Assembly: GCF_005886805.2 (NCBI RefSeq)
Contig: NZ_CP045429.1
Location: forward strand, 3,256,501 to 3,320,500
DNA length: 64,000 nucleotides
Direction: 5' to 3'
From: Pseudoalteromonas rubra
GTDB taxonomy: Bacteria; Pseudomonadota; Gammaproteobacteria; Enterobacterales; Alteromonadaceae
Shown here: piece by piece, positions 40,320-53,067 of the stretch
Position numbering within the stretch: position 1 is the stretch's first letter
Layout: every line of letters starts with the position of its first letter
Program-made: the position numbers and the translations under genes
The notes under the pieces: generated by a model
The model's input: only the letters and a program-made list of their open reading frames with translations
What the model was told of the DNA's origin: nothing
Database searches by the model: none

Positions 40320-40349
40320 CGCCAAATTTGTCGTTACTCTTGCCAAAGA

Positions 40350-40380
40350 AAAGCCGCACTTTTGCGGCTTTTCTGCTTTT
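40350..40380 (+). terminator. Rho-independent terminator of lipA
   Basis: AAGCCGCA and TGCGGCTT flank a short T-rich loop and are followed by TTCTGCTTTT, about 30 bp after lipA. It marks the end of the core block and the start of the accessory island. Confidence 0.88.
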
Positions 40381-40410
40381 TACAGCTCAAAGTTCCATAA
40401 TTAATAGCTA

Positions 40411-40620
40411 ATACCAATTTCACTTAATACCTGTTCAATTTAAAGGAGCAAATATGACGCTAACGGCGTTATAAATTTCTCATTTAGAACAACTAAATAG
40501 CAAAGTCTTCGTCTCGCCTACATGAATGTAGATGGCTCAGCGATAGCAGGACACGAGCGTGATGTTATCACCCCTATTTTCTGACTTCAAAATAGAACAT
40601 TTAATTAAGCAAATTGCTAT
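40411..40620 (+). mobile_element. MITE-like element, left copy
   Basis: A 210-bp non-coding element matches, base for base over most of its length, a second 210-bp copy at 51383-51592 in the same orientation. The ends are imperfect terminal inverted repeats: it starts ATACCAATTTCACTTAAT and closes with ATTAAGCAAATTG. Inner arms (ATTTAAAGGAG side and CTTCAAAATAG side) also pair, so a transcript could fold into a long hairpin. There is no open reading frame, hence a miniature element mobilised by an unseen transposase. Small differences between copies show the pair is not recent. Confidence 0.85.
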
Positions 40621-41032
40621 AACTTGTTAAATCAGTCTCAATATCAAATTTGTACCTTACTCTACATATCTTTAACCTTAGTTTAAGGACCAGTTTCTAC
40701 ATACTTTTAAACCAGCGCTTTAGGGGCGCAGTCAACCTACTCCAAGTGGTCAAAGACATCTAGATCTTAAAAAACGATCCCCTTAAAAACCAGTGCAATA
40801 CGATTAATGGCAATTACAACGTGTGTGTCGTTTTCAATCAGCGATGCTAAGTTAACAGCCAACACGTCAAAACACAGCGCAGTGGGGAGAAATATCTCCT
40901 CACTTATTAGACTAGGATGATCGTATCGATAGCTAAGCCAATTCGTATGATCGATTAAAAGTGAAAGTTGCAAACTCATCCCAAGTTACCAGTCATTCAA
41001 CTCAAAACCCATCCTTTGTTCAAAAAACATTC
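40621..41032. other. AT-rich non-coding leader region of the peptide cluster
   Basis: About 410 bp lie between the left MITE-like element and the presumed promoter of the peptide genes. I see no recognisable gene. A 70-codon open frame on the minus strand has no family features and no clear ribosome site. The region could contain regulatory sites of the cluster, but none is evident. Confidence 0.5.
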
Positions 41033-41059
41033 TTGACATATTCACAATTCGTTAATACT
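41033..41059 (+). promoter_or_regulatory. Candidate sigma70 promoter of the precursor peptide genes
   Basis: A perfect TTGACA (-35) at 41033-41038 is followed after 15 bp by AATACT, a four-of-six match to the -10 box. The 17-bp-spaced alternative is weaker. The first peptide ATG lies about 50 bp downstream. The spacing is slightly short, so the exact -10 is uncertain. Confidence 0.5.
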
Positions 41060-41110
41060 GTGGAAATGCGACTTATTATTCGCAACAACAAACAATAGAA
41101 GGAATTAATT

Positions 41111-41212
41111 ATGAAAACGATTAAAGCTAAGCTACTACGTGCACTCGGCGTTCGCAGTGCAAAACCATCCACCTCAGCGAAGTATTTCTGGCATCACTAC
41201 AACAACATCTAA
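41111..41212 (+). CDS. Candidate RiPP precursor peptide, copy 1
   Basis: This 33-residue peptide starts M-K-T-I-K-A-K-L-L-R-A-L-G-V-R and ends A-K-Y-F-W-H-H-Y-N-N-I. The first 15 residues form a cationic amphipathic helix-like leader. The middle (S-A-K-P-S-T-S) is a variable linker. The last nine residues follow a Lys and carry Tyr25, Trp27 and Tyr30 in the shared frame Y-x-W-x-x-Y-N-N-I. A perfect AGAAGGAATT lies just upstream. It is the only copy with K rather than K-R before the core and with two His between Trp and Tyr. The precursor role is inferred from repetition, shape and adjacency to oxidative enzymes. An unmodified cationic peptide remains an alternative. Confidence 0.8.
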   Translation: MKTIKAKLLRALGVRSAKPSTSAKYFWHHYNNI

Positions 41213-41236
41213 TCAATGAAATAGAAGGAATTGACT

Positions 41237-41338
41237 ATGAAAACACTGAAAAATAAGGTGCTTCGGGCACTGGGCGTTCGCGCAACATCCCCTTCTCAGT
41301 CCAAGCGTTACCTATGGATTATGTACAACAATATCTGA
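41237..41338 (+). CDS. Candidate RiPP precursor peptide, copy 2
   Basis: This 33-residue paralogue starts M-K-T-L-K-N-K-V-L-R-A-L-G-V-R, has the linker A-T-S-P-S-Q-S and ends K-R-Y-L-W-I-M-Y-N-N-I. The dibasic K-R before the nine-residue core would suit a trypsin-like leader peptidase. Tyr25, Trp27 and Tyr30 are in register with copies 1 and 3. It has its own AGAAGGAATT site, seven bases before the ATG. No Cys occurs, which argues against thioether chemistry and for modification of the aromatic residues. Confidence 0.82.
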   Translation: MKTLKNKVLRALGVRATSPSQSKRYLWIMYNNI

Positions 41339-41379
41339 TTGATATTGCCTGACTAACCACAACTTAGAAGGAATTGATT

Positions 41380-41481
41380 ATGAAAACACTGAAAACTAAG
41401 GTGCTTCGTGCACTGGGCGTTCGCGCTACCTCTGCCTCTCAGTCCAAGCGTTATTTTTGGATTATGTACAATAATATCTGA
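41380..41481 (+). CDS. Candidate RiPP precursor peptide, copy 3
   Basis: This 33-residue peptide differs from copy 2 at only three positions: Asn6 to Thr, Pro19 to Ala, and Leu26 to Phe in the core, giving K-R-Y-F-W-I-M-Y-N-N-I. DNA identity to copy 2 extends into both flanks, so this is the youngest duplication in the array. The ribosome site AGAAGGAATT is retained. The Leu/Phe swap between Tyr and Trp is the same one seen between copies 1 and 4, which suggests that this position tolerates bulky hydrophobics only. Confidence 0.82.
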   Translation: MKTLKTKVLRALGVRATSASQSKRYFWIMYNNI

Positions 41482-41523
41482 TTGATATGACCTGAATAAC
41501 CGCAATCTAGAAGGAATTTAACT

Positions 41524-41619
41524 ATGAAAGCACTTAAAACAAAAGTAATGCGCGCATTGGGCCTTCGCACCGCCACTCAGTCAAAGCGCTATCTGTGGAA
41601 GTTGTATAACAACATTTAA
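41524..41619 (+). CDS. Candidate RiPP precursor peptide, copy 4
   Basis: This 31-residue peptide starts M-K-A-L-K-T-K-V-M-R-A-L-G-L-R and ends K-R-Y-L-W-K-L-Y-N-N-I. The linker is two residues shorter (T-A-T-Q-S), yet leader and core keep their lengths, supporting a leader-linker-core organisation. The residues between Trp25 and Tyr28 are Lys-Leu, so the two inner core positions read HH, IM, IM and KL across the four copies. A hairpin follows 10 bp after the stop, before the P450 genes. Confidence 0.82.
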   Translation: MKALKTKVMRALGLRTATQSKRYLWKLYNNI

Positions 41620-41629
41620 TTCCGCTCTT

Positions 41630-41655
41630 CAGCCCATGACCTAACCCATGGGCTG
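41630..41655 (+). promoter_or_regulatory. Hairpin between precursor genes and P450 genes (possible attenuator)
   Basis: A perfect 9-bp stem, CAGCCCATG with CATGGGCTG, surrounds an eight-base loop. It lacks a strong T tract (only TTT follows), so it is likely a leaky terminator or a processing/stability element. Such elements between short precursor genes and enzyme genes usually make peptide mRNA more abundant than enzyme mRNA. That role here is inference. Confidence 0.6.
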
Positions 41656-41703
41656 TTTCACCACCTCTCCCCAGAATGGCAACCCACAGAGCGAATAATA
41701 ACA

Positions 41704-42906
41704 ATGATGATACCCAAAGAGCGCCCTGACATTGCGGCAATGAGAGAAGATTGCAGTAAGGGAAAAGAAGATTATCAGGTTGACGACCAGAGCTATGCCT
41801 TTTTTAACCCACAAAGTGCCCGGCTGGCGAATCAGCTGAACTTTGCCGACATGACCCTGCCGGAGTCCCTGTTTGATACCCAAGACGACGGTCAGCAGGC
41901 AATGAGCTGGCAGCATATTCGCAGCGGCTGGCTTAAAACCCTCAAAGAGTTAGACACTCAGGCCGCGCTCAGTCAGGTCAAACAGACAATGAAGACGCAT
42001 TTACTGGGTGCCGCAGGCAAGCCTGCTAACCTGGACCTGCTGATCCAGGAATGTATTGCATTTTCTGTCCTGGACGTAATGATCTGCGATCTCACCATAC
42101 AGCAGCGGGCACTGATAACCCGCCACATGCGCGCCCAGATCCAGGTGTTACTGAAACCCGAAACGCACACTCGACTGAGACAATATCCCTTGCTCTGGTA
42201 TAACCTGCGTGCGGCTCAGGTGATCCGCAAGGCGATCCATAAACGCCGAATAAGCAAGGAGCCCAGGCTCGACCTGCTACAAAGTGTTGTCGATAACTAC
42301 GCTGCGCTGGGTATCGACAGAGCACTGGACGCCATGATGACCCTGGTCACCGCGATTTCCGGCCCGCCCGGCGCGGTCGCCAGTTGTATGGCAGCGCAGC
42401 TGCTGCAATCTCCCCAATGGCAAGACAAGCTTCGCACAGAACTTAACGCAGCCCCCACTCAGGTGCCCGCTCTGCCCTTTAAACACACACCGCAGTTACA
42501 CTGGTTTATCAAAGAATCGCTGCGCATGTGGAGTGTTCCAATTGTATTTCGTGAGGCACGCTGTCCGTTTAGCGTGGGTAAACTGACCGTGCAGGCTGGC
42601 GATACCTTTTTTAACAGCAGCTACTTTGTGCACCGTAACGAGCAGTACTGGCCCGAGCCTCATGTGTTCGATCCGCTGCGCTGGCAGCAGGCAAACGTGC
42701 AACCCAACACCTATGTGCCATTTGGCTGGAACCCACGCGCCTGTGTTGGTGCGCAGCTGGGCACCAACCAGCTGGCTATCTTGTGTCAGCTGTTATTGTG
42801 TGATCTCAACATCACCCTCACGAGTCCGTCGGCGCTCGCGTTTGAAAATATGAACATCCCCTCTGTAGCCGGTTTTGAGGGCACCATTAGCGAGCAACAG
42901 GCATGA
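41704..42906 (+). CDS. Cytochrome P450 (first of pair), candidate peptide-modifying enzyme
   Basis: The 400-residue product is of bacterial P450 length. The K-helix E-x-x-R is at Glu271-Arg274 (K-E-S-L-R). The heme loop F-G-W-N-P-R-A-C-V-G is canonical, with the thiolate ligand at Cys347. Where the I-helix normally carries A-G-x-x-T, this protein reads A-I-S-G-P-P-G-A-V, so the usual acid/alcohol pair that protonates iron-bound oxygen is missing. No ferredoxin or reductase gene is near. Position right after four Tyr/Trp-rich peptides suggests aromatic cross-linking or hydroxylation, as P450s do in biarylitide, cittilin and tryptorubin pathways. The start is uncertain: two ATGs lie in tandem without a strong ribosome site. 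The 3' end overlaps the second P450 as ATGA. Confidence 0.85.
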   Translation: MMIPKERPDIAAMREDCSKGKEDYQVDDQSYAFFNPQSARLANQLNFADMTLPESLFDTQDDGQQAMSWQHIRSGWLKTLKELDTQAALSQVKQTMKTHLLGAAGKPANLDLLIQECIAFSVLDVMICDLTIQQRALITRHMRAQIQVLLKPETHTRLRQYPLLWYNLRAAQVIRKAIHKRRISKEPRLDLLQSVVDNYAALGIDRALDAMMTLVTAISGPPGAVASCMAAQLLQSPQWQDKLRTELNAAPTQVPALPFKHTPQLHWFIKESLRMWSVPIVFREARCPFSVGKLTVQAGDTFFNSSYFVHRNEQYWPEPHVFDPLRWQQANVQPNTYVPFGWNPRACVGAQLGTNQLAILCQLLLCDLNITLTSPSALAFENMNIPSVAGFEGTISEQQA

Positions 42907-44033
42907 GATTAGAAGACACCGAAGAAAAATTTAATAAGCCTTTTCAGGCGCTGGACCAGGCACTGTCCAAGTGTCCTGCACACATTGAGTTTGAGCAGGA
43001 CAATTACTATGTGACTGACTTTGACTCCGCGAAACAGGCGATGGGCAACCCCGACGGCAATTATGTTGAACAATCCGATTTTTTTAGCGTTAACGGCGCG
43101 ATGTTTTCGACCCGGGATGTACAAATTGCCATCGGCAAAGACGCCATCCTCAGCCTCAAACGTTACTATGAGCAGCGTCGGAGCAAGATAATTGAGCAAT
43201 TCAAACATCAGATAAGCCTTGGCCAGCGCTGGCCGGATAGTGCCAATGACCTGATGTACAATGCGTTTTATGACTTTCTGGTCGATAACCAGCGCAGTCC
43301 CCAGCTACGCAAACTGCTCGATCAGGTGCTCGTTTATTCTCTCTACAGTGGTCAAAAAACCCATGGGGCTGGATGGCGACGCGCCTTTATCCGCATGCGG
43401 GTGCACCGGGCACTGCGCGCAGTATTTAAGGCACGCCGCCAGCAAAGTCCGTATCAGGGCAATAACCGCGATGTGATTGACATCTTGCTGGCATCGAGCC
43501 CGGAAAACGAGTCACCCAAAGCGCTGGCACAGATTTTTTTATCCTTCTTTTTTGCCATTAACAGCTCCATGGCGTTTACCCTGGCCTGGTCTTTGTATTT
43601 TTGTGCCAAAGAGGGCGGCGTTTTGCACCCGGCCCCCTGGATTGTCAAAGAAGCTTTGAGGCTCTGGCCCGTCGCCTGGAACCTGCCCCGCACACCCAGT
43701 AAAGCCCATACCCTGGGGGAGCTGGACATCAAGCAGACGGATACCGTTACAGTATGCCCATACGTGCTGCATCGCCACCCGGACAACTGGCCGCAACCCG
43801 AGCGCTTTTATCCGCCACGCTGGGAAGATGCCCCTGCTGACGCGCCTTATATGCCGTTTGGCTGGGGCACCCATAAGTGCATTGCCTCTGCCTTTGCACT
43901 GACCTTTACCGCAGATCTGATTGGCGCGATACAAGGCCAGCAACTGACATTTGAGCAGCTGTCAGACGAGCTGCATCCGGAGCCTGCCATCGCGCCGCCC
44001 GCTTTTACAGTCACGGCACATAACCCGGCCTGA
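42903..44033 (+). CDS. Cytochrome P450 (second of pair), divergent
   Basis: This is a 376-residue P450-like protein. The K-helix E-A-L-R is at residues 250-253. The heme loop F-G-W-G-T-H-K-C-I-A has the ligand Cys326, but the usual Gly two residues after Cys is Ala. The I-helix region reads F-F-A-I-N-S-S-M-A-F, again without a clear acid-Thr pair. Similarity to the upstream P450 in the C-terminal third (W-P-x-P-x-x-F-x-P-x-R-W, then P-F-G-W) suggests ancient duplication. Translation is coupled to the first P450 through ATGA, so both are probably made in equal amount and may act together or on different core residues. A structural rather than catalytic role for one member is possible. Confidence 0.8.
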   Translation: MRLEDTEEKFNKPFQALDQALSKCPAHIEFEQDNYYVTDFDSAKQAMGNPDGNYVEQSDFFSVNGAMFSTRDVQIAIGKDAILSLKRYYEQRRSKIIEQFKHQISLGQRWPDSANDLMYNAFYDFLVDNQRSPQLRKLLDQVLVYSLYSGQKTHGAGWRRAFIRMRVHRALRAVFKARRQQSPYQGNNRDVIDILLASSPENESPKALAQIFLSFFFAINSSMAFTLAWSLYFCAKEGGVLHPAPWIVKEALRLWPVAWNLPRTPSKAHTLGELDIKQTDTVTVCPYVLHRHPDNWPQPERFYPPRWEDAPADAPYMPFGWGTHKCIASAFALTFTADLIGAIQGQQLTFEQLSDELHPEPAIAPPAFTVTAHNPA

Positions 44034-44048
44034 TCCTATCCTGAAAAA

Positions 44049-44063
44049 GCCCGCTCTGCGGGC
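44049..44063 (+). terminator. GC-rich hairpin after the P450 pair
   Basis: GCCCGC and GCGGGC pair around TCT, 15 bp after the second P450 stop. The downstream bases are not T-rich, so termination may be partial or Rho-assisted. It separates the P450s from the oxidase genes by a 272-bp gap. Confidence 0.5.
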
Positions 44064-44305
44064 CTGCTCGGGGACCCAACTCCCTCACGTAACCTGTTGT
44101 AATAGTTATTACACGACTTTGCATCTAGAGTTTCATCAGATACCGATCGGCACAGCGCAGCTATACTCTCAGTGGGTTGGCGTGAATCGTCATGCCCGGT
44201 CGGGACAGGTAAACGGCGTATCTGTGGATCACGCGTCAACTGGCGGGTGAGCATGTGCGCCATTGCAGTTACCTGACAAGGAAACATAGATAAGCGGAAA
44301 CCGTT

Positions 44306-47300
44306 ATGAGCGATAAGAAAAAACGTAGTAAGCAACAACAAGGTGAACTGGTTAACCCCAAGTATCTGGATAAAAACATCAAACATGCCCCAACCGCCAA
44401 CAAGGTGCAGTGCTGGACCGGTGGCGATGACTACCAGCCTATTGAGCTGGCCACTCAACGTCTCAAAGAAATGTTTGTTGAAATGGGACAAAAAACCCGT
44501 ATTGAGCGTGGTCAGAAACCCGCAGAGCGGGCCGTATTTCGAAAGCAACATGGCATCGCCTATGGTACCTTCGAAGTACATGGAAAACTCGATAAAGCCC
44601 TTCAGAAAGGGGTGTTTGCCAAACCTGCCAGTTACGACTGTGTAGTACGCTTTTCCAGTGATACAACACCAGATAGCCCGGATCTGCACACCACCTTAGG
44701 GGTCGGCATCAAACTGTTTGGCGTGAAAGGCCAGAAGCTGCTGGGCGACAACGACAATGTTGATTTTATCATGCAAAACATCGATCGCTTTTTTGCCCGC
44801 GATGCTTCACAAATGTGTGCCTTTACCACCGCAGGTGTCATCAACCGCGATTATCCGGCTTATCTTAAAAAACACCCAAAAACGGCCGCTGTGCTTGATG
44901 CCATGACCAAGGTCGAAGCCAGCTGTCTGAGTGCGCATTATTGGGCAATACTGCCCTTTAAACTTGGCGAGCAAAATGCCGTGAAATACCGTATTCGCCC
45001 TGTGGATACCTATCGCGGTGCGCCGGCACAAGGCAATAATTACCTGGCTGATGATCTACAGATCCGCCTGCGTCAGGGTGAAGCCAAATTTGTGTTTGAG
45101 ATCCAACGTCGTCCAGCCAATGCCTCAGAAGAAGACTTTCCCATCGACAACGCCATGGTGGTGTGGCCGGAAGATCAGGCACCTTTTGAACCCGTTGCCA
45201 CGCTAACGCTGCCACAGCAAGATATTTGCGCCATTGGCCAGGCCGAGTTTGGTCGCAACCTCGCCTTCAATATCTGGCGGACACTGGCCGACAATGAACC
45301 TCTGGGTTCCATCGCGCAGGCACGAAAAGTGGTGTATCAGGCCAGTGCCGATACCCGCCACCAGGCCAATGGTCAGCAAATGAATGAGCCCGATGCCATT
45401 GACCCAAAGTTCACTGGTAATACAGACGAAGACAGCACCTGTATTGTGCGTGCCGGCATTTACCCACCCATAGGTGTGATGCGGGTTGGTGGCAGTAACG
45501 AATACTTTATCGGCCCGCAAGTGCCTAACCCCAAACCCCGGCTGGAAAAAGATGCCTATCGTGATGGCAAAGGGCTGCTTAAACGTCAGGCGGCCGAATT
45601 CCGTATCTATGGTTTCAATGCCGCAGGTAAGGCTGTCAAAGAGCTGACCATGGATAATGCCAAAATCAGCTGGCAGGTGCATTTGGCCAATCAAAAGTCG
45701 TCCTGGTATGAATTTCAGCTAGCCCTGGATGTACCGGAAGCGGCCGATGCGCCACCTAGCCTGCTGCGTAACGCCAACGTTGCCGATCGCAACCGCTTGC
45801 TGATCGATGGCGGCAGCCACACGCTCGATAAGGCCAAAGTGAAAAAAGGCCCGCAATTCCATGGCGAGTTTATGGGAGAAGAAGTCTATCTGGGTGAGCT
45901 TAAATCCGACAAACAGGGCCGTTTGGTTGTCCTAGGCGGCAATGGTGTATCACGTAATATCAATGGCGATATCGCGATCACCTTTGCCAACAATGAAGGC
46001 TGGCACGACGACATTTCCGACGGTCCGGTCACTGCCGAGGTAGAATATGAGGGCGTTAAGCTCCAAGTTGACCCGGCCTGGGTGGTATGTGCCCCACCTG
46101 ACTATGCGCCAATGCAAAAATCCGTGCGTACCATGTGGGACTTAATGCGCTCAGTGGCCGTCAATGCCGGTATGCTCACCCGCCCGGCTCGGCCTTCTTT
46201 CAGACAGGATATTTTGCCCATTTTCGAGCGTATGACCGACTTACAATGGGTCAATGCGGGGTTTGCCGCGGGGTTTGGATTTAAAGCCCCCTTTAACTAC
46301 ACCAGCGAAGAATGGAAAGCCAAACTCGGCAACCCTTCCCCGGCTTATAAAGAGCTGCGTCGCACGCTGTCGAACAATTTCCGTCGCTACGGACAACCTG
46401 GCGCTCAGGCAGCGCAACTGTGGCCCTGGCTTTATGGCGATGCGTTATCGATCCCGCCGGCGGGTTCTGAGCGACAGCACTCCACGTTATCAGCACTGCA
46501 ATTGTCTTTCTTAGATCAGTGGGTTGAGGGCGACTTTACGGCCGATTATATCGATCCAGCAATTTGTCCGCATGCGGCTGAACCGGATGACATAGATAAA
46601 GTGCCGGTTGCCGAGCAACCCGATATGCTGACCCGTGGCGCATTGGATTTTTGTCTTGCTGATGCCTTCCACCCGGGGTGTGAAATGACCTGGCCTATGC
46701 GTACGGCCGGTATGTATTCAGCCCCGTTCCGTATCAAGCATGCTGACAAAGCGATCTGTAAAGACACCACCTATTATGGCGCGCAAATCAATGGCGATAC
46801 CATTACTCTGGCACAGGGTCCCATTCTGGGCGGCCAAGTTGCCGGGGGTATTACGCGCTGGATGGCCATTCCCTGGCAAACAGACACAGCCAGTTGCCGA
46901 GACGGCTACACACCAGAATACGACCCTTACCTGCCTACCTTCTGGCCAGCGCGGGTACCCAATAATATTCTGGATGTCGCGCGCTACGAAGAAGCAATCA
47001 ACCCAGCTCTGGATGCCCAAACCCGCGTCGAGGCATTCAATTATCGCAGTGACTGGCTGGATGCTCTGCCGCTCTATGGTCAGCCTGCAACCTACACCGC
47101 ACAGATCAACAGCATGATCAAAAACTTCGACAAGCTCGCTGTGGTACAGGGTCGCCCGGGCGCAACCGACGACGTCGACCTGCCCGCTAATATGCAAGTC
47201 GGTATCACGGCTGAAGATCATCGCGAGGGGCTGGCCAGCGAAGCCGAAACCACCGAACTGGGCAAACTACAAACCATTGCTGAACTAGCTGCTAATCTGG

Positions 47301-47425
47301 TGCCCAGCCCCGATGGCCGCGATCCAGCTCAACCGGTAATGGCAACCTCGCGTTCTCGGGTCGATCTCGGGGTCATAGAAAAGGTCAGCCGCTTTGCGAT
47401 GAACTTCCCCAAAGACTTTAAGTAA
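44306..47425 (+). CDS. Catalase-like / LodA-like (CTQ oxidase) fusion protein
   Basis: This protein has 1039 residues. Residues about 20-360 resemble small heme catalases: distal His82 in Q-H-G-I-A-Y-G-T-F, V-R-F-S-S, Asn158 in D-F-I-M-Q-N-I-D-R-F-F, and a possible proximal Tyr344 in R-K-V-V-Y. From about 378 it resembles LodA/GoxA oxidases: I-V-R-A-G-I-Y-P-P-I-G-V-M-R-V-G, then N-E-Y-F-I-G-P. Cys792 (H-P-G-C-E) and Trp857 (A-I-P-W-Q) are 65 residues apart, the spacing I recall for the Cys516-Trp581 cysteine tryptophylquinone of Marinomonas LodA. Cys783 is an alternative partner. LodA-family enzymes oxidise amines to release ammonia and hydrogen peroxide; the fused catalase domain could remove or use that peroxide. 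No signal peptide is visible. The LodB-like gene follows after 11 bp. Acting on the peptides is inference. Confidence 0.85.
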   Translation: MSDKKKRSKQQQGELVNPKYLDKNIKHAPTANKVQCWTGGDDYQPIELATQRLKEMFVEMGQKTRIERGQKPAERAVFRKQHGIAYGTFEVHGKLDKALQKGVFAKPASYDCVVRFSSDTTPDSPDLHTTLGVGIKLFGVKGQKLLGDNDNVDFIMQNIDRFFARDASQMCAFTTAGVINRDYPAYLKKHPKTAAVLDAMTKVEASCLSAHYWAILPFKLGEQNAVKYRIRPVDTYRGAPAQGNNYLADDLQIRLRQGEAKFVFEIQRRPANASEEDFPIDNAMVVWPEDQAPFEPVATLTLPQQDICAIGQAEFGRNLAFNIWRTLADNEPLGSIAQARKVVYQASADTRHQANGQQMNEPDAIDPKFTGNTDEDSTCIVRAGIYPPIGVMRVGGSNEYFIGPQVPNPKPRLEKDAYRDGKGLLKRQAAEFRIYGFNAAGKAVKELTMDNAKISWQVHLANQKSSWYEFQLALDVPEAADAPPSLLRNANVADRNRLLIDGGSHTLDKAKVKKGPQFHGEFMGEEVYLGELKSDKQGRLVVLGGNGVSRNINGDIAITFANNEGWHDDISDGPVTAEVEYEGVKLQVDPAWVVCAPPDYAPMQKSVRTMWDLMRSVAVNAGMLTRPARPSFRQDILPIFERMTDLQWVNAGFAAGFGFKAPFNYTSEEWKAKLGNPSPAYKELRRTLSNNFRRYGQPGAQAAQLWPWLYGDALSIPPAGSERQHSTLSALQLSFLDQWVEGDFTADYIDPAICPHAAEPDDIDKVPVAEQPDMLTRGALDFCLADAFHPGCEMTWPMRTAGMYSAPFRIKHADKAICKDTTYYGAQINGDTITLAQGPILGGQVAGGITRWMAIPWQTDTASCRDGYTPEYDPYLPTFWPARVPNNILDVARYEEAINPALDAQTRVEAFNYRSDWLDALPLYGQPATYTAQINSMIKNFDKLAVVQGRPGATDDVDLPANMQVGITAEDHREGLASEAETTELGKLQTIAELAANLVPSPDGRDPAQPVMATSRSRVDLGVIEKVSRFAMNFPKDFK

Positions 47426-47436
47426 GGTCGAGCGCA

Positions 47437-48588
47437 ATGACACAGGTAAAACACTGTCAAATTGCGATCATGGGTGCCGGGGTGGCAGGCTGTATCGCCG
47501 CCCTGGCACTGAGTCGCCACTTTCAGGTACTCTTGATTGATAAGCAAGCTGCCTGCCCCGACAAGGTTGGAGAATGCCTGCCGCCTGCTGCGGCGCGGAT
47601 CCTTCGCAGCCTGGATCTGTTGCATGCTTTTGAACAGCGCCAGGATCTGCATATGCCAAACTATGGCATTCGAAGCCATTGGGGCAGTGAACATGGCCTT
47701 ATCAACGATACCCTCAGTAACCCGGATGGAACGGGCTGGCAGCTTAACCGGGCCGGATTTGAAAACTGGTTACGCGAGCAGGTGACTGCGCGGGGCATAG
47801 AAACGCTCTGGCCTGCTAAGTTGCTGGATGCTCAGCCTGGCAGCGATGGTTGGCTACTGCATCTGGCTAAGCAAACACAAGTTCAGGCCAGTGCGCAAAG
47901 TATCGCGGTGCCCTGTCACTTTGTGATTGATGCAACCGGACGTCACAGTGCGTTTGCCACCAAACTCGGGCTCAAACGTAAAGTACTAGATAAGCAAATT
48001 GCACTGTGGGCCAGCCTAGATTGCGCTATGGAAAATCAACTGGCATGCATCAATACAAGCCCACAAGGGTGGTGGTATAGCGCCAAATTACCCGCGCAGC
48101 GTCGCATACTGGCACTACAAACAGACAGCGATTTACTCAAAAAAGGACTGCAACATGACCTAAGTCAGTTTTGCCGCCTGGCACGCTCACAGGCAGGGTT
48201 AAAAGCACTGCTACCAAAGGGGATTGAACAATCAGGGAGCATGCAGCTGCATGGTGTGGTATCAGCCAACAGCACCTGCCTGACCCAAACCGCAGGACAT
48301 CGCTGGGCCGCTTTGGGCGATGCGGCATGTAGCTTCGATCCTTTGTCTTCGCAGGGGATGTTCAATGCCATGGCAACCGCCATGCAGCTGACCAATAGCC
48401 TGATAGGCCATGGCCTGACCGATCCCAGTGCCATGATTGACATTGCCCGCTTGCATCAGACGCAAATCGGCACAATCTGGCAGCACTATCTGTCTCATCG
48501 GGCGCATTATTATGGCCAGGAGCAACGCTGGCCCGATGCTCCCTACTGGCAACGTCGCCATACGCAAAAAAACGCCGAGTTCAGTTGA
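47437..48588 (+). CDS. LodB-like FAD-dependent maturase/oxidoreductase
   Basis: The 383-residue flavoprotein has an N-terminal dinucleotide fold (I-M-G-A-G-V-A-G-C), a conserved G-E-C-L-P-P-A-A, G-W-Q-L-N-R-A-G-F and the second FAD motif G-D-A-A-C-S-F-D-P-L-S-S-Q-G-M. The pattern is that of LodB and related tryptophan-halogenase-like monooxygenases. LodB is needed to build the tryptophylquinone in LodA, so an 11-bp gap to the oxidase gene fits a maturation partner. A direct action on the Trp of the small peptides is another possibility. A short inverted repeat (ACGCCG...CGGCGT) overlaps the gene end. Confidence 0.85.
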   Translation: MTQVKHCQIAIMGAGVAGCIAALALSRHFQVLLIDKQAACPDKVGECLPPAAARILRSLDLLHAFEQRQDLHMPNYGIRSHWGSEHGLINDTLSNPDGTGWQLNRAGFENWLREQVTARGIETLWPAKLLDAQPGSDGWLLHLAKQTQVQASAQSIAVPCHFVIDATGRHSAFATKLGLKRKVLDKQIALWASLDCAMENQLACINTSPQGWWYSAKLPAQRRILALQTDSDLLKKGLQHDLSQFCRLARSQAGLKALLPKGIEQSGSMQLHGVVSANSTCLTQTAGHRWAALGDAACSFDPLSSQGMFNAMATAMQLTNSLIGHGLTDPSAMIDIARLHQTQIGTIWQHYLSHRAHYYGQEQRWPDAPYWQRRHTQKNAEFS

Positions 48589-51927: not shown

Positions 51928-53067
51928 ATGAAACATTCTTTAATTTGCTTATCGATTGTAAGTGCTCTATCCAGCGCCGCTGCGGCGGCGTCAGAACCCG
52001 ACTACCAGGGTGCAGCCGCTGAGCTGACGATTAACAATACCTGTATCGTCAGATTCGACGACAAGACGGAAAAACTGGATGTTGAGGGCAAGGCCAGAGG
52101 GTTGCTGGCACGTGCAAACGCACAAGCAAAACACATCTATAAGCATGCAATGAAAGGCATGGCAGTTAATATGAGCTGCGATCAGGCACGTACCATGTTT
52201 GCCGCAGAATCGGCCATAATGCGCTTTACGCCAGACGGTGCTGTCTATGCCAGCCCGGCAAAAAAACTTGGTAAACCCGGTGGCGGCACACAAAACCAAA
52301 CCATTCCATGGAGTGTCAGCCGCGTAGGTGGCCCGGTGGATGGCAACGGCTATACAGCCTGGGTTATAGATACCGGTATCGATGTTGATCATGCAGACCT
52401 GAATGTTGACAGCAGCCGGGGTTTCAGCGCATTTAGTAAAGGCAAGAATGCCGGCGTTGATGATGCCAATGGTCATGGCACCCATGTTGCGGGCACCATT
52501 GCTGCGCTGGATAATAGCCAGGATGTGGTTGGTGTCGCGGCCGGGGCCACCGTTATTCCGGTGAAAGTACTCGATTCACGCGGCTCTGGCAGCTGGTCTG
52601 GCGTATTGGCTGGTATTGACCATGTCGCAGCCAATGCATCACCGGGAGATTGTGTCAATATGAGCCTCGGTGGTGGCTTTAACCAGGAGCTGAATGATGC
52701 CGTTGAAAGTGCAGCGCAGCAGTCTGGTGCTTTCTTTGTGATTGCAGCAGGTAATGAAAGCCAACATGCCAGCAACGTCTCACCTGCCAGCGCTTCGCAT
52801 CCGCGCGTATATACCATCTCAGCGACGGATGCCAATGACCGCTTCGCCAGCTTCTCGAATTATGGTAACCCACCTGTTGACTACGCGGCTCCGGGTGTCA
52901 GTATTTTGTCAACACGCAGCGGCGGTGGTACGACAACCATGTCGGGCACATCCATGGCATCACCTGCGGCCTGTGCCGTGATAATGATGAACAATGGTAA
53001 CCCCAGAACTGATGGACGTGCATCCGGTGACCCAGATGGAAATGCCGACAGCATTATTCATTTGTAA
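51928..53067 (+). CDS. Secreted subtilisin-family (S8) serine protease
   Basis: The 379-residue product has a signal peptide (to A-A-A-A-S) and an inhibitor-I9-like propeptide up to about residue 120. The S8 catalytic domain has Asp148 (W-V-I-D-T-G), His183 (N-G-H-G-T-H-V-A-G), oxyanion Asn275 (A-A-G-N-E-S) and nucleophile Ser342 (S-G-T-S-M-A-S-P). It ends about 35 residues after Ser342 in a D-P-D-G-N-A-D tail and has no PPC or other C-terminal domain, unlike many Pseudoalteromonas extracellular proteases. Secretion across the outer membrane would need a separate system. It could be a general nutrient protease; a role in trimming the cluster peptides is only a possibility. Confidence 0.92.
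   Translation: MKHSLICLSIVSALSSAAAAASEPDYQGAAAELTINNTCIVRFDDKTEKLDVEGKARGLLARANAQAKHIYKHAMKGMAVNMSCDQARTMFAAESAIMRFTPDGAVYASPAKKLGKPGGGTQNQTIPWSVSRVGGPVDGNGYTAWVIDTGIDVDHADLNVDSSRGFSAFSKGKNAGVDDANGHGTHVAGTIAALDNSQDVVGVAAGATVIPVKVLDSRGSGSWSGVLAGIDHVAANASPGDCVNMSLGGGFNQELNDAVESAAQQSGAFFVIAAGNESQHASNVSPASASHPRVYTISATDANDRFASFSNYGNPPVDYAAPGVSILSTRSGGGTTTMSGTSMASPAACAVIMMNNGNPRTDGRASGDPDGNADSIIHL

Follow-up and report, generated by a model that had tools for sequence, protein, structure and literature searches.

Two P450 enzymes and short precursors form a cassette, separable from a neighbouring catalase-LodA fusion, that likely makes a bicyclic peptide in Pseudoalteromonas rubra

The window analysed here, a stretch of 64,000 nucleotides from Pseudoalteromonas rubra (contig NZ_CP045429.1, positions 3,256,501 to 3,320,500), carries in a row four genes for short peptides, two cytochrome P450 genes (P450-A and P450-B), a gene for a catalase-like/LodA-like fusion protein and one for a LodB-like flavoprotein, which raises the question of whether the whole row serves one pathway for a ribosomally synthesised and post-translationally modified peptide (RiPP). 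The original prediction held that it does and saw in the combination a candidate new class. The gene row itself was borne out, the four paralogous peptides of 31-33 amino acids, the P450 pair, the fusion and the LodB-like gene being consecutive. The RiPP reading of the precursors and the two P450s is likewise supported, by nine loci from four genera and three families of one order. The class joining P450s with LodA and LodB dissolves into two neighbours. What remains after LodA and LodB are removed is, we infer from the sequences, a P450-crosslinked RiPP with two cross-links sharing a Trp: positions 40967-44087 form a separable cassette that is likely, with considerable room for doubt, to make a bicyclic peptide in which one Trp is cross-linked to the aromatic residue at i-2 and to the Tyr at i+3.

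The precursors are 30-38 residues long across loci and share a conserved basic leader, about MKxxKxxxxRxxGxR. All 24 precursor open reading frames (ORFs), from the nine loci and an orphan copy in genome G027, end in [YW]-x-W-x-x-Y-x-x-[IVML]; the extraction required [YW]-x-W-x-x-[YW], which leaves only the choice of Y at -4 and the final residue as independent observations. Sixteen of the 19 distinct precursors were counted from the C-terminus; in all 16 the W at -7 and the Y at -4 are invariant, position -9 holds Y in 12 and W in 4, and positions -8, -6 and -5 vary. The last residue of the core is I, V, M or L. An invariant aromatic C-terminus, as first described for the window peptides, is not what they have: they end in N-N-I, and the invariant aromatics sit at -9, -7 and -4. 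Short ORFs near the P450s of relatives were found by leader or aromatic-core search patterns and are not free of preconception; in G027 and G049 every short same-strand ORF upstream of the P450s was listed. Between G000, the genome of the window, and G130 the peptide genes differ at 25 of about 90 synonymous and 11 of about 300 nonsynonymous sites (pS 0.277, pN 0.037; one G130 gene served as the partner of two window genes), which indicates purifying selection on the peptides. A AGAAGGAATT stretch can be read off the sequence a few bases upstream of each of the four precursor ATGs.

P450-A and the fusion were each scanned against 108 genomes of the genus, and a precursor profile built from ten precursors (eight of this genus) was run over the same set. 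Full-length P450-A is found in six of these genomes (G000, G062, G033, G130, G027 and G111), while 15 further genomes gave partial matches only, to other P450s. Precursor-profile matches at E < 1e-7 are confined to the same six genomes and number 20, of which 19 lie beside P450s (four in each of G000, G033 and G130, five in G062, two in G027 and one in G111); the next-best match has an E value of 0.0126. Because of this confinement, the precursor set is more than chance. Together with one locus in each of G049, G478 and G1301, which represent three other genera of the same order, there are nine loci with both P450s, and all nine have a precursor directly upstream, so that the co-occurrence of precursors and P450s expected across Pseudoalteromonas and relatives was found. 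The distance from the last precursor to P450-A is 57-247 bp (84 bp in the window), and the two P450 genes either overlap or are at most 9 bp apart (a 4 bp overlap in the window). An ABC transporter gene follows P450-B in three loci, overlapping in G049 and G478 and 15 bp later in G111; the three proteins all contain an ABC ATPase domain, two of them also PF00664, and no peptidase domain was found in any of the three.

These data bear on the idea that the short peptides are not P450 substrates at all but small membrane-active peptides of independent function under a common promoter, an idea which their short length and basic N-terminal half, as read from the sequence, would suit. The orphan precursor, MAILKKKVLRALGVRAKANKNAKSYLWIMYNNV, is encoded in G027 (contig 73, L116 9545-9646, - strand) on a contig other than that of the P450 cassette of this genome, with no P450 gene recognised nearby, and such an orphan would also fit independent peptides; it may instead be modified in trans. 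Against this, at E < 1e-7 none of the 108 genomes has a precursor without the P450 pair, and all nine P450 pairs have a precursor directly upstream, which makes independent peptides the least credible of the explanations weighed here.

The fusion protein has the Pfam domains Catalase (E 1.8e-6), LodA_N (E 2.6e-77) and LodA_C (E 2e-38). It is present at 90% identity or more in nine of the 108 genomes (G000, G062, G033, G130, G094, G095, G100, G122 and G093) and at 64-65% in six more (G026, G092, G083, G082, G019 and G069), none of which is among the six with P450-A. The P450 cassette and the fusion occur together in four genomes (G000, G062, G033 and G130). The five fusion genomes that lack the P450s carry the fusion, LodB and then the same 260-aa gene, in this order. 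Their BLASTN homology to the window starts just after P450-B, at 44088 in G093 and G122 and at 44117 in G094, G095 and G100, which places the start 218 or 189 bp, respectively, upstream of the fusion start codon. In the P450-bearing G033, G062 and G130, homology on the left begins at 40967-40972. As the left homology begins there and the fusion-side homology starts at 44088, the cassette can be delimited as 40967-44087. G094, G095 and G122 also share the left flank (window 37001 to about 40320, with lipA at its end), and because both flanks are homologous the cassette is simply missing between them in these three genomes; only a 282-aa gene stands there in G094 and G095, with two further small genes in G122. 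The left neighbour in G093 and G100 is different DNA. Three of the four genes tested in that of G093 match RAMP or Cas10 domains in Pfam, indicating a type III CRISPR system. Since sister genomes have an empty or differently filled stretch at this place, the LodA/LodB pair appears to be resident and is probably outside the peptide pathway.

Two side observations concern this part of the genome. The left neighbour in G100 resembles that of G093, as judged by sequence starts, and the stretch left of the fusion (window 40320-44087; L079-L083) thus varies within the P. rubra group, containing the RiPP cassette, small genes or type III CRISPR genes. The fusion gene of G094 (contig 169) has an in-frame stop, which the other eight copies of at least 90% identity do not show; given this stop, the gene may be dispensable.

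The pathway first proposed, in which the fusion and LodB take part in modifying the peptide, perhaps by oxidising an amine of the cross-linked product, draws on the position of these genes on the same strand, 272 bp after P450-B, in an arrangement that is adjacent in the four genomes of the P. rubra group, and on a promoter/terminator scan that found no terminator between P450-B and the fusion. Beyond these four the association fails. The same fusion-LodB pair stands without P450s in five of the nine fusion genomes, and five cassette loci (G027, G111, G049, G478 and G1301) have no LodA beside them. At E 1e-3, no LodA_N domain was found in four of these five genomes, and the single one of G478 is on another contig; the G027 contig ends 1.4 kb after P450-B, and the absence of LodA there rests on the whole-genome search. 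Fusions of catalase and LodA are moreover described from many other bacteria (PMC4417212). Participation of LodA and LodB is therefore refuted as a general requirement of the peptide pathway, and as a contribution in P. rubra itself it is very improbable.

For the cassette, the question becomes what two P450s do to one short peptide. In all nine loci, both enzymes retain the heme-binding Cys as well as the ExxR motif. In the window, P450-A has the heme loop FGWNPRAC, the ExxR motif ESLR and GPPG in the I-helix, and P450-B has the heme loop FGWGTHKC and the ExxR motif EALR. In P450-A, 51 residues are invariant across the nine loci, all of which have T-A-x-x-G-P-P-G in the I-helix, and in a profile alignment its G-PP stands opposite G-YE-TT of CYP3A5. 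From this alignment and general knowledge of the I-helix, P450-A would lack the usual proton-delivery (acid-alcohol) pair, which may be a hint of one-electron coupling rather than hydroxylation. Among NCBIfam models, both P450s match the RiPP cross-linking P450 ApyO best, with 69.2 and 71.2 bits where the cut-off is 525. Across the loci, P450-A and P450-B identities co-vary (r 0.994 for 36 genome pairs, with no correction for relatedness). An AlphaFold2 model of P450-B (pLDDT 90.4) has the general P450 fold. The structure 9ulw in the PDB is related to P450-B of the window (E 1.9e-75) and differs by one substitution in 376 residues from P450-B of G049, so this enzyme type is already under study; 9ulw is apparently an engineered variant. 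A search of about 5.8 billion sequences gave at least eight protein clusters related to P450-A at E 1e-77 or better. Close relatives of P450-A look rare in this incomplete search, which scored 7995 candidates only, P450-A of at least G111, G478 and G1301 not being among them. Mostly metagenomic relatives of P450-A (P0005-P0008; 29-34% identity) and of P450-B (P0020-P0025 and P0027-P0029; 31-35%) were seen besides, and these point to further cassettes.

Both of the linkages required have precedents. P450s link C7 of Trp to Tyr(i+3) through a C-C bond and Tyr(i) to Trp(i+2) through a C-N bond, according to a study that used TrpB as hook (PMC11002830), and roseovertin, rubrin and lapparbin are named with these linkages (PMC12299652). 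Gpertide, which appeared in 2025, shares the Trp-Tyr link of rubrin (PMC13383641). Because the core offers both geometries around one Trp and two P450s are present, two links sharing that Trp are the simplest model. The conserved leader would recruit the P450s; one of them, more likely P450-B, would join W-x-x-Y as in rubrin and gpertide, and the other, more likely P450-A, would join Ar-x-W as in lapparbin. Both reactions would couple aromatic radicals, each linkage costing 2 H. A host protease would then remove the leader, and secretion of the product would fall to the ABC exporter found in three of the nine loci and, in the others, to a host exporter. As a guess, the product probably serves in competition with other bacteria. 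The reason for assigning P450-B to W-x-x-Y is that the structure of its G049 ortholog has been solved and that gpertide, which contains this link, dates from 2025. The model is weakest at this assignment, the tie between gpertide and Gallaecimonas, the organism of G049, being drawn from the name.

Several observations weigh against the two-ring model. Four of the nine loci are from close relatives in the P. rubra group, so that independent support comes to about six lineages. The allocation of bonds to enzymes follows from geometry only, and P450-A could hydroxylate rather than cross-link. Next to the P450s neither a protease nor a redox-partner gene was seen, and cassettes of the window's type lack an adjacent exporter. 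G836 has a lone P450-A relative, and the pair is thus not universal for the P450-A family. A single atropopeptide P450 can install as many as three bridges, and xWxxYx is seen in Xanthomonas cores of that group, so the presence of two P450s does not have to imply two simple cross-links (PMC11450843). As a separate observation, in G836 (L113 8853-10264), which belongs to another family of the class, the upstream candidate precursor ends in VWNTWPLWVEF (W-x-x-W-x-x-W), and this locus may be a possible one-P450 cousin.

The strongest alternative is that a single P450 cross-links W-x-x-Y, as in rubrin and gpertide, and the other tailors the product, perhaps by hydroxylating Trp or the first aromatic residue. 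A Trp-Tyr link is what has been described for rubrin and gpertide (PMC13383641), SroB combines linking with hydroxylation of Trp (PMC11002830), and the second P450 of laurentirubin B adds one bond after the first has made three (PMC11450843). The Y or W at -9 in all 16 precursors counted is most easily explained as a bond partner. A single cross-linker is unlikely, though it deserves to be taken seriously. The wider statement that the loci represent a RiPP family with one Trp as the hub of two fused rings, each made by a dedicated P450 (Ar-x-W and W-x-x-Y), on a compact cassette whose chromosomal site is empty in sister Pseudoalteromonas genomes or holds other cargo, for instance type III CRISPR genes, is offered tentatively.

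The features of the window are listed in the table. A single sigma-70-like match lies at 41052-41079; shuffled sequences average 4.9 matches against one here, so that it carries no weight.

Features of the cassette and of its right-hand neighbours (window positions)
Feature	Position	Strand	Basis
Cassette upstream region, predicted promoter region	40967..41110	+	Homology start in P450-bearing genomes
Predicted precursor peptide 1, MKTIKAKLLRALGVRSAKPSTSAKYFWHHYNNI	41111..41212	+	ORF, 33 aa; profile match E 3.8e-19
Predicted precursor peptide 2, MKTLKNKVLRALGVRATSPSQSKRYLWIMYNNI	41237..41338	+	ORF, 33 aa; profile match E 7.6e-21
Predicted precursor peptide 3, MKTLKTKVLRALGVRATSASQSKRYFWIMYNNI	41380..41481	+	ORF, 33 aa; profile match E 1.6e-20
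Predicted precursor peptide 4, MKALKTKVMRALGLRTATQSKRYLWKLYNNI	41524..41619	+	ORF, 31 aa; profile match E 3.7e-16
P450-A, 400 aa, predicted cross-linking P450	41704..42906	+	PF00067 E 2.6e-27
P450-B, 376 aa, predicted cross-linking P450	42903..44033	+	PF00067 E 2.1e-28
Conserved region before the fusion gene, marking the cassette's right border	44088..44305	+	BLASTN; found in genomes lacking the P450 cassette too
Catalase-like/LodA-like fusion, 1039 aa, neighbour judged outside the cassette	44306..47425	+	Pfam
LodB/GoxB-like flavoprotein, 383 aa, partner of the fusion, judged outside the cassette	47437..48588	+	NCBIfam NF038171, NF038174

The LodB-like gene follows the fusion after 11 bp, and its product scores 225 bits with NF038171 and 210.4 bits with NF038174, both under the cut-off of 400. 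The fusion of a catalase-like domain to a quinoprotein oxidase of the H2O2-producing type suggests built-in handling of its own peroxide. At window 51928-53067, 3.3 kb downstream of LodB, lies a gene for a subtilisin-family protease (PF00082, E 5.7e-35), with similar genes also downstream in G033 and G062; there is no evidence of peptide processing by it.

The catalase-LodA fusion is already in print (PMC4417212). No paper on the precursor-two-P450 cassette was found among the matches listed from an open-licence library, and the primary report of rubrin or that of gpertide, both outside that library, may include a member of the cassette's family; if 'Pru' in the rubrin names PruA and PruB stands for Pseudoalteromonas rubra, part of the system is already published. 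Should the two-ring model be true, two small P450s acting on a single short peptide would turn genetically encoded cores into a rigid fused bicycle, of use in peptide engineering and in mapping the bond choice of P450s. Natural precursor variants are found side by side, four in the window genome and five in G062. The locus also illustrates how adjacency can mislead, as the striking LodA and LodB neighbours are residents revealed as such by sister genomes.

Among known systems, the neighbouring fusion compares with the GoxA/LodA oxidases, whose LodA_N and LodA_C domains it has, while it scores below both NCBIfam equivalog cut-offs (419.7 of 750 bits for GoxA and 150.2 of 600 bits for LodA). PRUB_24676 of P. 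rubra ATCC 29570, with 1039 aa, has the same length and domains (PMC4417212). Of the P450-modified peptides, biarylitides stand apart by a precursor of five residues, much shorter than those of the cassette. For the aminopyruvatides, ApyO is the closest NCBIfam P450 model of both enzymes, and it cross-links YxY, and WxY in a variant (PMC13192836); the scores of the cassette enzymes are far below its cut-off, the precursors have no C-terminal Asp, and a Pfam scan of seven proteins of the locus and its neighbours found neither an MNIO nor a methyltransferase.

Among the atropopeptides, laurentirubin B with LauB1 and LauB2 provides a two-P450 precedent (PMC11450843). The xWxxY stretch, a pattern of several Xanthomonas atropopeptide cores in that report, is present in all 16 precursors counted, though whether the Trp falls at core position two, as in atropopeptides, depends on where the core starts. 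That the system is itself an atropopeptide member, with one multifunctional P450 making the usual bridges, is nevertheless improbable. None of the six family-defining leader anchor motifs KSLK, RSLK, ESLK, KSRK, KPLK and PSLK (PMC11450843) occurs in the 16 of 19 distinct precursors tested, no NCBIfam precursor model matches the four window peptides, and a second P450, exceptional in atropopeptides as that source describes them, is present in all nine loci.

At the level of genes, the cassette fits P450-crosslinked RiPPs in the general sense (cyptides), since all nine loci have a short precursor beside a P450 and conserved core aromatics. Lapparbin (SlpB) carries the Tyr(i)-Trp(i+2) link, which is the Ar-x-W geometry here (PMC11002830, PMC12299652, PMC13383641); its link is single, whereas in the cassette product the Trp would be shared with a second one. 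Rubrin and gpertide are nearest in the other half of the core, their Trp and Tyr(i+3) corresponding to the W at -7 and the Y at -4. They are described, in the parts of the reports available, with one cross-link, in contrast to the two P450s and the third conserved aromatic position of the cassette.

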